Assembly (NCBI GenBank): GCA_902810695.1
Contig: CADDYV010000021.1
Span: 1 to 53,390, forward strand
Direction of reading: 5' to 3'
Length of the DNA stretch: 53,390 nucleotides
Source: Actinomycetota bacterium
GTDB taxonomy: Bacteria > Actinomycetota > Rubrobacteria > Rubrobacterales > Rubrobacteraceae
Shown piece by piece: positions 32,476 to 39,624 of the stretch. A program made the position numbers and the translations under genes. The notes below the pieces were generated by a model that saw only the letters and a list, made by a program, of their open reading frames with translations, was not told the origin of the DNA and ran no database searches. Positions within the stretch are counted from its first letter, which is position 1. Each line of letters opens with the position of its first letter.

Positions 32476-33483
32476 CTACCAGCGGTAGGGATGCGGGCCG
32501 AAGTCCGCCTCGTAGTAGAACACCATCGCGCGTCCGGGAGGAGCCACCTCGTCCAGGCGCCCGCGGTCATCGTCGGTGATCTCGACCTCCACTGCTCCCA
32601 GGTTATCTTCTAGCTGCTCCATCGTGCGCGGCCCAATGATGGGGCTCGTTATATCGGGCTGGTCCTTGCACCACGCGAGCGCCACCTGGCCCGGCGTGCA
32701 GCCCTTCTCCTTCGCTATGGCCTCGACAACATCCAGCACGTCGAAGGCTTCTTCCACGAAATGGTTTCTTCCCAGCCTCCTCGGTTCCAGTCCGTACCGG
32801 GAGTCTTCGGGAGACTGCTCGCCCCGGCGGTACTTGCCGGTCAGGAAGCCTCCAGCCAGCGGCGACCAGGGGATCAGGGCCAACCCGTAGGTCCGGGCGA
32901 CGGGGATAAGCTCACGCTCGATGCGCCTGTCTAGCAGGTGATACGGCGGCTGCTCGGTCACGAAGCGGTTCAGGCCGAGCTCCTTCGAGGCCCACAACGA
33001 CTCGACCACCTGCCAAGCCGCGAAGGTGCTGGTGCCCGCGTAGAGGACTTTGCCGGCCCGGATCAGGTCGTCCAGCGCCCTCAGGGTCTCGTCAATGGGA
33101 ATCTGGGAGTCCGGACGGTGGATCTGGTAGAGGTCTATGTGATCGGTCTGCAGACGCCTGAGCGAAGCCTCGCACTGCTCGATGATATGGCGGCGGTGGT
33201 TCCCGGCGGCGTTCGGATCATCGTCGTCCATGCGCCCGTGCACCTTGGTGGCGAGCACGATGCTGTCTCGTTTGCCGTTGCGTTTCAGGGCCCTGCCCAC
33301 CACCTCCTCACTGCGACCCCGACTGTAGACGTTCGCCGTGTCGAGAAAGTTAATTCCCGCGTCTATCGCCCGATCTATGATGTCCAGCGAGTCGGCTTCC
33401 TCCGTGCGGCCCCCAAACATCATGCAGCCGAGACACAGCTCGCTGACCTTCACCCCCGTGCGCCCCAGACTACGGTACTCCAT
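32476..33483 (-). CDS. Aldo/keto reductase
   Basis: A 335-residue (beta/alpha)8 NADPH-dependent oxidoreductase. The catalytic tetrad is Asp48 and Tyr53 (LDTANVYSRG), Lys80 (LATKVHG) and His122 (YQIHRPD). The segment IPWSPLAGGFLTGKYRRG is typical of the AKR11/12-type bacterial group. ATG at 33483-33481 has GGAGGAGGG upstream. It reduces aldehydes or ketones; the substrate is not known. It is a single gene, convergent with the MFS gene, and its 5' side borders the tRNA-Ala region. Confidence 0.92.
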   Translation of the reverse strand: MEYRSLGRTGVKVSELCLGCMMFGGRTEEADSLDIIDRAIDAGINFLDTANVYSRGRSEEVVGRALKRNGKRDSIVLATKVHGRMDDDDPNAAGNHRRHIIEQCEASLRRLQTDHIDLYQIHRPDSQIPIDETLRALDDLIRAGKVLYAGTSTFAAWQVVESLWASKELGLNRFVTEQPPYHLLDRRIERELIPVARTYGLALIPWSPLAGGFLTGKYRRGEQSPEDSRYGLEPRRLGRNHFVEEAFDVLDVVEAIAKEKGCTPGQVALAWCKDQPDITSPIIGPRTMEQLEDNLGAVEVEITDDDRGRLDEVAPPGRAMVFYYEADFGPHPYRW

Positions 33484-33628: not shown

Positions 33629-33701
33629 GGGGCCGTAGCTCAGTCGGGAGAGCGCCGCCTTTGCACGGCGGAGGTCACGGGTTCGAATCCCGTCGGCTCC
33701 A
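33629..33701 (+). tRNA. tRNA-Ala (anticodon TGC)
   Basis: A 73-nt cloverleaf. The acceptor stem GGGGCCG/CGGCTCC has the G3-U70 pair that identifies alanine tRNAs. The D-arm is GCTCAGTCGGGAGAGC, the anticodon loop reads CTTTGCACG with anticodon TGC, and the T-arm is CGGGTTCGAATCCCG. The discriminator base is A and CCA is not encoded. A tyrosine recombinase gene begins its 3' side 88 bases downstream, so this tRNA is the likely attachment site of the element to its right. Confidence 0.95.
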
Positions 33702-33748
33702 CTCCAAAAGTAGGTAGTTTGCAGGAAGAATGTGAAGAGAATAAAGAA

Positions 33749-33788: not shown

Positions 33789-34933
33789 CTACTCCATCAG
33801 CAGTGCCTTCTCCATAGCCGCAGCGGTGTGGGCTCCCATCGAAGGTATCCAATGGGAGTAGGTGTCGAGGGTTATTTTGATGTTGGCGTGCCCCAGAAGC
33901 TCCTGAACATACTTAGGGTGGGTGTTCTGCTGCAATAGTAGGGTTGCGCGGGTGTGCCGTAGGTCATGGGGACGGATCTGGGGAAGTCGGGCTTTCTTGA
34001 GGAGCTTGTTGAAGGAGCGCTGCCGGAAGTTCGACGGATTTATGGGGGCTCCAGTGTTTGTCGTAAAGACCAATCCCTGATCCTGATATAGGTCGCCCAG
34101 AGTCTCTATCTCTTCAAGTTGACGCCCCAAATGGGTTTTTAACGCCTGTATCGCACCCTGTGTGAGGTGGATGGTGCGACGGCTGCTGGGCGTCTTCGTT
34201 TCCCCGAGCGCAACCTTTCCACCATTGCGAGTGAGGGTGCGTCGTATCCTAAGAACTCCACGATTAAGATCTACATCTTCCCATTTGAGGCCGAGAAGCT
34301 CTCCTTCGCGCATCCCGGTGTAGATGGCTAATACGTACAGAGCTTCGAGCTTGTCGCCCCGAGCGGCTTCCAACAGGCGGCGTGCTTCCTCGGCTGAGAG
34401 AGGCTGCATCTCCTTCTGGGGAGTGGGTCTCGGAGGGGTCACATTGTCCGCGACGTTGCGGGGAATAAGATCCCAACAGATGGCCTGTTTCAGAGCCTTG
34501 TAAATGATGCTGTGGGTATTCATGACGGTGGCCGGTGCGAGCCCGTTGTCGAGCTTGTCCCGATAGAAGGTCTGTAAGTGGAACGGAGTGAGCTTTCTGA
34601 GCTTGATGCGGCCTAAAGCCGGTTTGATGTGTAAATTGATGATGCTCTCATAACGGTCATAGGTGCTCTGCCTGACACTCCCGCCTACAGAGAGATCTTG
34701 AGCCACCTCTCAAAATACTCTCCGACGGTCATGTTCTCGTCATCGAAGACAAGACCTTTATTCCGGTTGGAGAGAGCTTCAAAGAGCTTGTCAGAGACAT
34801 CATCCCGTGTTGGACCGTAGATGGTCCTCCTCTTCGGCCCGGTAGGAGTCTCTACCCAGTAGCGGGCCATCCACTTCCTTTTCTTCTTGTGGAAGGTTAT
34901 GGACCCTTCCCCATTACCGCGCTTCTTCGCCAC
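33789..34933 (-). pseudogene. int: Phage-type tyrosine recombinase (integrase), broken by a one-base frameshift
   Basis: Two frames together encode one integrase of about 380 residues. The first (34933-34685, GTG start with AGGAGG 9 bases upstream) holds the arm-type DNA-binding domain (GEGSITFHKKKRKWMARYWV) and the start of the core-binding domain (EYFERWLK). The second (to 33789) continues with VRQSTYDRYESIINLHI and the catalytic domain, with all active residues: TGMREGE, HDLRHTR and LGHANIKITLDTYSH. Restoring one G next to 34697 joins them (WLKDLSVGGSV). The gene faces tRNA-Ala(TGC), its probable target. Loss of function would lock the element in place, unless the frameshift is a sequencing error. 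Confidence 0.85.
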
Positions 34934-35801: not shown

Positions 35802-35811
35802 TAGCTCAAAG

Positions 35812-35914
35812 ACATCGAGAGAGGCGTGGAGGGAATCGGCCCATTGAAGCGCCCGGCAACCTGATCTTTTGATCGCGGTGCCACTGCCGACCCGAGGAGA
35901 AACGGGAACGATGT
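35812..35914 (+). ncRNA. SAM riboswitch aptamer (S-box, SAM-I/IV family)
   Basis: The helix P1 is formed by ACATCG (35812-35817) and CGATGT (35909-35914). Inside are the conserved parts in order: GAGAGAGG...GGAGGGA, the GGCCC...TTGAAGC segment, CCCGGCAACC and CGGTGCCACTGCC. These are the hallmarks of the S-box aptamer that binds S-adenosylmethionine. A terminator follows at 35935, so it is a transcriptional off-switch when SAM is abundant. Usual targets are methionine or SAM synthesis and transport genes; here the only downstream gene is a frameshifted, unrecognised one. Confidence 0.92.
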
Positions 35915-35934
35915 AGTGCATACGCTATCTCAGG

Positions 35935-37745: not shown

Positions 37746-38382
37746 TTTGGCCAGTACCTCCCTTGTAAGAAGTATCTATCTCTCAATGAACGCATTGAAG
37801 CATATCTGATACCTGCAGAGGGAATGCAATAGACCCAGCTTCTTATGTCATATTGACCCTGATATTGGTCCGCATGGCAGGCGACAGCGTACTTACAGAG
37901 CGTGTTGCGTAAGTAGGGGCCTGGCTGGATTACCGACAGTCATCTTGTCGCCGATAAGCTAGCCAGAGCTAGCTCACCTTCCTGCCTCTCCTCTTGGACT
38001 TCACGAAGGCGCCAGCAGCAGGAACTCCCCGCCTTTCCCGAGAGGCGAATATCTGGAGGCAGGATCTCAAGTCCTATCCTCCTCGCTTCATTCGAGAAAC
38101 CCAGAGAATGGGTGTTTTCATCCCTTCAGAACTCTTCTCAGGAAGGCCGCATTTCAGGTTGGTAGTCGGTATAGGTCTTCCTGGAGGTGTGGGGTGAGGG
38201 CGCTCCTCCTCTTTGTCTATATTGCTTTTTCTCCTTTTTCACTATAGTACAAACAATCGTTTGGTGTTCGGGGCAAACTCGGATCAAGTCCAACCTTAAT
38301 CTGGTCAAAACTATTTCCAAAAATTTCTAAAGATTTTCTCGAAAACGCTATAGTTTCCCTCTCATCAGTCCGATAACTCCTT
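37746..38382. other. 637-base stretch without a supported gene
   Basis: Only short, unconvincing frames. The right part (38220-38380) is AT-rich and carries a TATAGT at 38349-38354 that can serve as -10 box for the c-di-GMP riboswitch transcript. No transposase or repeat could be recognised. Confidence 0.4.
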
Positions 38383-38460
38383 TGACACGAAAAAGGCAAA
38401 CCCGCCGCGAGGCGGGGACGCAAAGCCAGGGGCCTCCAGCGCGAGGTAGCCGGTTACCGA
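38383..38460 (+). ncRNA. Cyclic di-GMP-I riboswitch (GEMM-I)
   Basis: The aptamer reads AAAAAGGCAAACC, a GCGA tetraloop hairpin (CCGCC GCGA GGCGG), GGGACGCAAAGCC, a second stem (GGGGCCT...AGG) and GGTAGCCGGTTACCGA. These match the GEMM-I consensus element by element, including the tetraloop and the GACGCAAAGCC core that contacts c-di-GMP. It ends 18 bases before the GTG start of a secreted protein, with AAGGAG directly between, so control is probably at ribosome access; no terminator lies between them. Confidence 0.93.
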
Positions 38461-38478
38461 ATGGAAGGAGTAATACAC

Positions 38479-39543
38479 GTGAGGAAGTTCGTTACGTTCG
38501 CTGTGCTTGCCATACTTCCAAGTATGGCTTTAGTTTTGGTGCTGGCCAGCACTGTGATGGCAGGGGTAGCTTCCGCTGCAACCATCAACATCAATCCAGG
38601 AGACGATCTGGACGCTAAAGTCAACGCCGCGCCATCAGGCGCTACGATACTCGTCCACTCAGGAACCTACTCCATAGACCACATCATAAAACTCAAAAGC
38701 GGGCAGTCCCTAGTCGGTGATACCGGCTCGACCTCTTCATTCGGATCTGCTGTCGTACCTTCTCCCTCTGTAAAAGTCCAGCTTGCAAAAGGAGTCTCCC
38801 AGAACACCCTGATACGTCCGTCAGGCAACCCTATAATTATCTCTTGGCTCGATCTCAACGCCACGGGCACGAATCAGGGCATAACCGCAATAGCTGGCGG
38901 TCCTGACCTGCATATGTCGGATTTGAAGGTTCACGGCGCGGCAGGCTCCGGAATAGGGCAGGCGCAGGGAGTCCTCACAAACAGCGAACTTTACGCCAAT
39001 GGTCAGGACCCATCCACGATTGGGGGGACCGCTGGCGGCCTCAAGTGCAACTACGCCTGTGAAGTCTCCCATGTTCTCTCCCACGACAATGGCGGGAACG
39101 GCTTCTGGTGTGATGTAGGATGTCAGTCCAATCCCGCAAGGGTAAACGGTTTCTGGGTGCACGACTCTGTTGCCTATTCCAACTCTCGTCATGGGATCTT
39201 CTATGAGAATTCCCCCAAGCCCGACCTGAACCCCGGAGATAACGTCAAGGCCCTGATCGAGAACAACTACTCGTATGGCAATGGGGCCAGTGATATCTCC
39301 ATCTCAGACTCCGCTTTTGGGACGGTCAAAAACAACGTGCTAGGCCGCAGCATTAGTGGTTCGCTTGTGCATAATGCTTTAAATCAGGGCATAGAGCTTC
39401 ACGCTTCAGGTGATCCTTCCCGCGGAACTCAGCACGACGCCACTATCACCGGTAATGCCCTCAATGGCGAGACGATCAAGGCCACCGGCAAGGACGGCGG
39501 CTGCGGGTGGCACGGCAACGTGTGTTCCTCGAATACTCCGTAA
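38479..39543 (+). CDS. Secreted parallel beta-helix protein under c-di-GMP riboswitch
   Basis: About 354 residues from GTG 38479, with GAAGGAG 8 bases upstream; an ATG at 38461 lies at the aptamer edge and has no ribosome binding site. A signal peptide (about 1-37, ending GVASAAT) precedes a right-handed parallel beta-helix with repeats typical of pectate-lyase-like folds (NINPGDDLDAKVNAAPSG start; GVLTNSELYANGQDPS; SVAYSNSRHGIFYENS; LIENNYSYGNGASDISISDS). It would act outside the cell on, or as part of, surface polysaccharide. The frame is intact. Two Cys pairs (CNYAC, CDVGC) may form disulfides. Control by c-di-GMP suggests a role in attachment or matrix. Confidence 0.87.
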   Translation: MRKFVTFAVLAILPSMALVLVLASTVMAGVASAATININPGDDLDAKVNAAPSGATILVHSGTYSIDHIIKLKSGQSLVGDTGSTSSFGSAVVPSPSVKVQLAKGVSQNTLIRPSGNPIIISWLDLNATGTNQGITAIAGGPDLHMSDLKVHGAAGSGIGQAQGVLTNSELYANGQDPSTIGGTAGGLKCNYACEVSHVLSHDNGGNGFWCDVGCQSNPARVNGFWVHDSVAYSNSRHGIFYENSPKPDLNPGDNVKALIENNYSYGNGASDISISDSAFGTVKNNVLGRSISGSLVHNALNQGIELHASGDPSRGTQHDATITGNALNGETIKATGKDGGCGWHGNVCSSNTP

Positions 39544-39594
39544 CGTCACCGTCTTTACGTAAAACTTCGTAATAATCGCCGTACATCAAGGAAC

Positions 39595-39624
39595 CTTGGG
39601 CCTTAGCAAAGGCTAAGGCCCAAG
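39595..39624 (+). terminator. Terminator after the beta-helix gene
   Basis: A perfect 13-bp stem (39595-39607 with 39612-39624, 4-nt loop) lies 52 bases after the stop codon. The following bases (AGGTTTGC) contain only a short T-run. Confidence 0.7.

Follow-up and report, generated by a model that had tools for sequence, protein, structure and literature searches.

A candidate double c-di-GMP gate, at the promoter and in the nascent mRNA, over a secreted beta-helix gene of a Rubrobacteraceae bacterium

The secreted beta-helix gene described in this study is probably transcribed by WhiG as a monocistronic mRNA that carries a c-di-GMP-I riboswitch at its 5' end, with both layers working as OFF controls. 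It also seems somewhat likely that c-di-GMP gates a whole regulon of secreted polysaccharide enzymes in this way, at the promoter via RsiG-WhiG and in the nascent mRNA via the GEMM-I aptamer. High c-di-GMP would arm RsiG, WhiG would be held and little transcript would be produced, and in those transcripts that are made c-di-GMP would stabilise the aptamer and its P1 helix against the Shine-Dalgarno sequence and lower translation. Falling c-di-GMP would then both free WhiG and open the Shine-Dalgarno sequence, and the enzyme would be co-expressed with type IV pilin-like genes, diguanylate cyclases and phosphodiesterases, and other secreted glycosidases of the same regulon. The window, meaning the whole stretch of DNA that was analysed (53,390 nt, contig CADDYV010000021.1), holds the following features.

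33629-33702, + strand: tRNA-Ala(TGC), at which the surrounding element may have integrated
33789-34706, - strand: tyrosine integrase adjoining the tRNA-Ala
38349-38376, + strand: WhiG/sigma-28-type promoter, with -35 TATA (TATAGTTT, 38349-38356), N16 and -10 TCCGATAA (38369-38376)
38382-38385, + strand: predicted transcription start, placed from the position of the -10, about 6-9 nt after it
38386-38462, + strand: c-di-GMP-I (GEMM-I) aptamer, identified by Rfam models, the GCGA tetraloop in P2 and the core letters
38465-38470, + strand: Shine-Dalgarno sequence AAGGAG, from sequence and P1 model
38479-39543, + strand: secreted right-handed beta-helix protein, GTG start, 354 codons, signal-peptide-like N terminus
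38509-38528, + strand: terminator-like hairpin with U-rich tail (TTTAGTTTTG) inside the ORF, weakly a possible part of the expression platform
39595-39624, + strand: 13-bp inverted repeat after the gene, a terminator-like palindrome with a similar counterpart at the second copy of the gene

An Rfam search gave a single riboswitch match at the locus (38386-38462, forward strand), which covers the model RF03167 (c-di-GMP-I-GGC) over its full length (1-80 of 80) with 67.5 bits against a cut-off of 59 (E 6.9e-14 for the window). The canonical c-di-GMP-I model, RF01051, scored 65.0 bits against a gathering cut-off of 35 (38385-38461, model positions 1-87), and in the RF03167 alignment the P2 tetraloop is GCGA, which is of the GNRA type. 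The aptamer therefore is as complete as an earlier note on this DNA had claimed, GNRA tetraloop included, although it begins 3 nt after the position 38383 given there, which corresponds roughly to the predicted transcription start. In its full length, its scores above both cut-offs, its GNRA loop and its core G and A it is like the Rfam families; it differs from those systems in standing at the predicted start of the mRNA with the Shine-Dalgarno sequence straight after it, leaving little space for a separate expression platform.

The WhiG-type promoter and the RsiG-WhiG system

The promoter reads TATAGTTT-N12-TCCGATAA, or TATA-N16-TCCGATAA, and ends 9 nt before the aptamer. Its -35 element, TATA, is one base off TAAA, which counts against an assignment to WhiG, but the site as a whole lies within the two mismatches allowed for TAAA ... 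GCCGATAA (PMC8325347). WhiG-type sites precede all four aptamers of the genome and 27 of the 104 aptamers sampled from the family, where 0.75 would be expected from mononucleotide-shuffled upstream sequences, a mild control. In the genome there are 35 occurrences of the strict pattern TAAAG-N14-16-CCGATAA and none of the reversed pattern, which served as control. In the 104-aptamer sample most WhiG-type cases have 7-11 nt between the -10 and the aptamer, and the aptamers lacking a WhiG site show a peak of sigma-70-like TANNNT 8-10 nt ahead. With either promoter type, the aptamer is thus predicted to begin the transcript.

This link between promoter and aptamer is not universal, as in genus g12 WhiG sites accompany 1 of 62 aptamers (26 of 42 in the other genera) despite the presence of RsiG and, where tested, of WhiG. 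Orthologous GH16 genes behind the riboswitch also differ, with a WhiG site in G000, G014, G023, G032 and G034 and none in G005, G011, G020 and G025, which suggests that the promoter type has been exchanged whilst the riboswitch was retained. In related genera the genes lacking a WhiG site often have a sigma-70-like -10 instead, so that the transcription layer appears exchangeable and the RNA layer appears to stay. The promoter-aptamer pattern was not found in viral contigs.

Both WhiG and RsiG are encoded in the genome. The former matches the WhiG structures of S. venezuelae and R. radiotolerans, and the latter is a single-motif protein of 92 aa, in which ERRVSYRRRILQGRID fits E(X)3S(X)2R(X)3Q(X)3D and whose best match among solved structures is R. 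radiotolerans RsiG (7lq4, E 2e-24); RsiG was found in 34 of 39 family genomes. In R. radiotolerans, c-di-GMP-armed RsiG binds and holds WhiG, and WhiG promoters with mapped transcription starts lie before pilus genes and genes for diguanylate cyclases and phosphodiesterases (PMC8325347). The consensus of the WhiG sites in the genome studied here is the same as that of these mapped promoters (PMC8325347), and behind its strict sites lie GGDEF/EAL genes, a GspH/pilin-like gene, a GH18 gene and a gene for a cadherin-like surface protein. Judged by their predicted products, these downstream genes match the R. radiotolerans WhiG regulon, and the likeness extends to WhiG itself, single-motif RsiG and TAAA/GCCGATAA promoters ahead of pilin-like and cyclase/phosphodiesterase genes. 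By analogy, RsiG-WhiG may work in the source organism as it does in R. radiotolerans, and with the WhiG-type promoter this would give a second c-di-GMP-dependent layer, which the earlier note missed along with the promoter.

Where the genome studied here departs from the published system is that WhiG transcripts of four secreted-enzyme genes are predicted to start with a c-di-GMP aptamer as well; riboswitches are mentioned zero times in that paper (PMC8325347), and none of the papers searched joins Rubrobacter, riboswitch and c-di-GMP. The attack-phase regulon of Bdellovibrio FliA (sigma-28), together with merRNA (PMC3627812), likewise combines a sigma-28 regulon with a c-di-GMP riboswitch RNA in one lifestyle switch. 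However, merRNA is an abundant non-coding RNA that is not marked as FliA-promoted in that paper's table (PMC3627812), and no RsiG is known outside the Actinobacteria (PMC8325347). A WhiG-type promoter also stands before the gene of a small secreted protein that matches a ribonuclease family (L156:135-617; PF00545, E 1.4e-11), so that the WhiG regulon may include a secreted RNase.

The leader and the direction of the switch

The Shine-Dalgarno sequence lies 8 nt before the GTG at 38479 and 1 nt past the outermost P1 pair (38386-38463), so it does follow the aptamer directly, as had been proposed. An alternative ATG at 38461 overlaps the end of the aptamer and is unlikely to be the start codon. 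Because the Shine-Dalgarno sequence abuts P1 and no terminator lies ahead of the start codon, control of translation, which the earlier note had favoured, is the likelier mode; its statement that no terminator intervenes is right as far as the start codon, but there is a terminator-like hairpin (38509-38528) just inside the ORF. When the 4 nt following the aptamer are counted in, P1 flanks across the family pair better with their cognate partners than with mismatched or swapped ones (z about -4), which suggests that P1 extends into the Shine-Dalgarno region in many family members, and it is for this reason that an OFF switch, coherent with RsiG-WhiG, is preferred.

For the window copy the balance leans only slightly towards this OFF switch. 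Its P1 is short and does not pair with the Shine-Dalgarno sequence if transcription starts at 38382-38384, and since that sequence is adjacent to P1 and not inside it, repression would be steric. The folding model lacking P1 hides the start codon instead, which counts against the OFF scheme. A stretch that pairs perfectly with the Shine-Dalgarno sequence, CTCCTTT (38377-38383), was considered as sequestration by an extended P1 and rejected as coincidence, as it comes directly after the -10, with most of its length ahead of the probable transcription start, and as the leader of the second copy does not preserve it. In the leader of a GH26-like gene (L046; G000 C33, aptamer 33166-33245) a perfect 11-bp hairpin, TGCGTTCCTCC...GGAGGAACGCA, buries the Shine-Dalgarno sequence directly after the aptamer; with this site inside a stable hairpin, one platform is not common to all members.

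An ON switch, in which the ligand-free leader would bury the Shine-Dalgarno sequence and start codon in structures formed with the first codons until c-di-GMP binds and releases both, is unlikely. Folds of the free leader do bury GTG 38479-38481 and part of the Shine-Dalgarno sequence, although shuffled sequences fold almost equally well. Comparison with the second copy of the gene in the same genome, on contig C22 (the window being on C21), also bears on this reading, as all six paired substitutions in the consensus fold of the leader and ORF start keep pairing, but this conservation is weak, with 30 of 500 controls as good. The copies agree at about 92% of positions over 38420-38619, a span made up of the end of the leader and the first ~140 nt of the ORF. 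Synonymous sites there are all but frozen, the changes are almost only transitions, and identity falls sharply at 38620. Third codon positions changed in 2 of the first 40 codons, against 138 of 272 codons towards the end of the gene (Fisher P about 9e-9, first 40 codons against all remaining codons). The GH16 orthologues do not show such freezing. Constraint on RNA within the first 40 codons was therefore set aside in favour of partial gene conversion between the two copies, which is the simpler explanation, and an RNA element within the signal-peptide code is a possible cause. If an ON switch were combined with repression by RsiG-WhiG, the result would be an incoherent loop, with output at intermediate or falling c-di-GMP.

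Control of transcription termination by c-di-GMP at 38509-38528 is improbable. The hairpin there has 8 bp and the tail UUUAGUUUUG, and its pairing is largely kept in the C22 copy, through G-U changes, at a level that 30 of 500 controls equalled. Shuffles of the region, however, yield a mean of 2.1 terminator-like matches by chance, no antiterminator pairing with P1 was identified, and the hairpin overlaps the signal-peptide code. An OFF switch acting on translation remains the preferred reading.

The beta-helix gene, its second copy and the surrounding element

The product is predicted to have an N-terminal hydrophobic helix followed by a right-handed beta-helix (AlphaFold, pLDDT 83.9). In Pfam profile searches PF13229 (Beta_helix) reached 20.8 bits, below its cut-off of 25.9, and no pectate-lyase family matched. 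The nearest solved folds found by Foldseek are the alginate epimerase AlgE4 (E 7.5e-8) and the biofilm polysaccharide lyase RbmB (3.6e-5), followed by an alginate lyase (5.0e-5) and the pectate lyase Pel9A (9.7e-5), with identities of 9-16%. Whilst the top matches of the predicted beta-helix are thus the mannuronan C5-epimerases AlgE4/AlgE6 and RbmB of Vibrio cholerae, it is 9-15% identical to them, with TM scores of about 0.3-0.4, and their catalytic residues are not matched. The description of the protein as secreted and pectate-lyase-like therefore holds for a secreted beta-helix, and is a statement of fold only where pectate lyase is concerned. The protein is maintained, judging from a dN/dS of about 0.19 against the C22 paralogue, and it probably acts on a matrix polysaccharide.

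The C22 paralogue shares 72% amino acid identity with the window protein. The copies are similar in DNA sequence between the promoter (38334) and the stop codon (39543) and again around the terminator-like repeat (39595-39624), with 39570-39622 matching C22. The cassette of promoter, aptamer, gene and terminator is thus present at two loci of the genome, and C22 is a contig of ordinary G+C. A third, 54%-identical relative in G025 has an aptamer about 330 nt upstream; its predicted start comes ~180 nt after this aptamer, and homology begins further still. A search for homologues with the same riboswitch hence returned the whole cassette at C22, but in G025 an aptamer standing well off the gene.

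The earlier note had read the locus as a gene imported on a decaying element and afterwards wired to the host's switch, and there is little chance that this is correct. An integrase at tRNA-Ala, low G+C, gene-poor surroundings and the patchy occurrence of the beta-helix family (6 of 39 genomes at E <= 1e-10) speak for import. Against it are the whole cassette on the ordinary-G+C contig C22, the aptamer that also precedes the G025 relative, at a distance, the occurrence of the aptamer class throughout the family, and the failure to find beta-helix homologues in viral contigs and plasmids; a scan of one contig collection returned only two loci, both in an actinobacterial MAG. The gene travels with its switch, so it did not come under that control after being imported, and the cassette at a second locus and the family-wide aptamer class, with its many unrelated targets, indicate from sequence comparison that the promoter and riboswitch wiring is native to the bacterial family and was not acquired with an imported gene.

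The surroundings of the window copy may nevertheless be a decayed integrated element, as had been suggested. In agreement with this there are an integrase beside a tRNA, a low G+C of 0.49-0.58 and, around the element, ORF fragments that gave no Pfam match; on the other side, no second attachment site was found, there being no direct repeat of the tRNA 3' end of at least 12 nt in the element. A SAM-I riboswitch scoring above cut-off (35809-35917) lies in the gene-poor region and is probably an orphan remnant, as no sizeable ORF follows on its strand.

Aptamer pocket, targets across the family and the double gate

The window aptamer has G before GC (AAGGC) and A after CGC (CGCAAAG), as in canonical c-di-GMP-I, and each of these letters is kept in 99 of the 104 family aptamers. 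We take these to be Vc2 G20 and A47, mapped from established structures, and we also assume that the position after CGC is the middle G of the name 'GGC' in RF03167. With the canonical G and A kept in the pocket, c-di-GMP is the expected ligand. RF03167 is the best-scoring Rfam model, slightly above RF01051, yet its consensus has G after CGC where the window has A, so that the 'GGC' tag is a best-score label and says nothing about the pocket. An A in place of G at position 20 marks the cAMP-GMP (GEMM-Ib) sensors, and the window aptamer has G there. It is very improbable that the aptamer is a relic or a sensor of another ligand (the c-di-GMP-I-GGC variant or cAMP-GMP), as the slightly higher RF03167 score is opposed by both pocket letters, and a divergence from C22 of 12% (9 of 77 positions), where the gene has diverged by ~28%, shows the aptamer to be under constraint. 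In two GH26-linked aptamers of other genomes (L135 and L145; G001 C4:35295-35371 and G022 C10:845-921) GAGC replaces GGC, which corresponds to A at the Vc2 G20 equivalent, a change known to favour cAMP-GMP.

Of 60 related genomes, 39 contain RF03167 matches, with up to 18 per genome. The genes downstream of the 104 sampled aptamers form clusters of subtilases (16 in 13 genomes), GH16 proteins (9 in 9), ECF sigma factors (6), GAF/HD-domain proteins with HD_5 (5), RTX-type calcium-binding repeats (4) and GH26-like Tat proteins (4), as well as beta-helix, GH5 and NlpC/P60-Golvesin proteins, although gene starts were chosen by a simple Shine-Dalgarno and length score and single assignments may be wrong. 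Family aptamers hence stand mostly ahead of secreted enzymes and c-di-GMP-related genes; secreted and surface targets are typical of GEMM, and the window gene is a target of the same kind. The four targets in the genome itself, GH16, GH26-like and two beta-helix proteins, suggest from their predicted functions that its riboswitch regulon serves exopolysaccharide remodelling. The GAF-HD_5 (HD-GYP-like) proteins behind c-di-GMP aptamers (L085 and its relatives in G011, G029 and G035) are possible c-di-GMP phosphodiesterases, which would make a feedback loop possible, and the ECF sigma factors are also placed behind such aptamers. Aptamer-like DNA matches were seen in the Deinococcus plasmids NC_012527.1, NZ_CP083458.1, NZ_CP026518.1 and NC_015170.1, at up to three places per record.

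The double gate yields a testable prediction, that of coherent versus incoherent gating. If it is real, one second messenger would act at two successive steps in the expression of a single gene, once by way of an anti-sigma factor and once by way of RNA. This would explain the many GEMM-I aptamers in uncultured relatives of Rubrobacter, where they would control secreted glycosidases, beta-helix enzymes, subtilases and c-di-GMP-related enzymes, and thereby the remodelling of the extracellular matrix.
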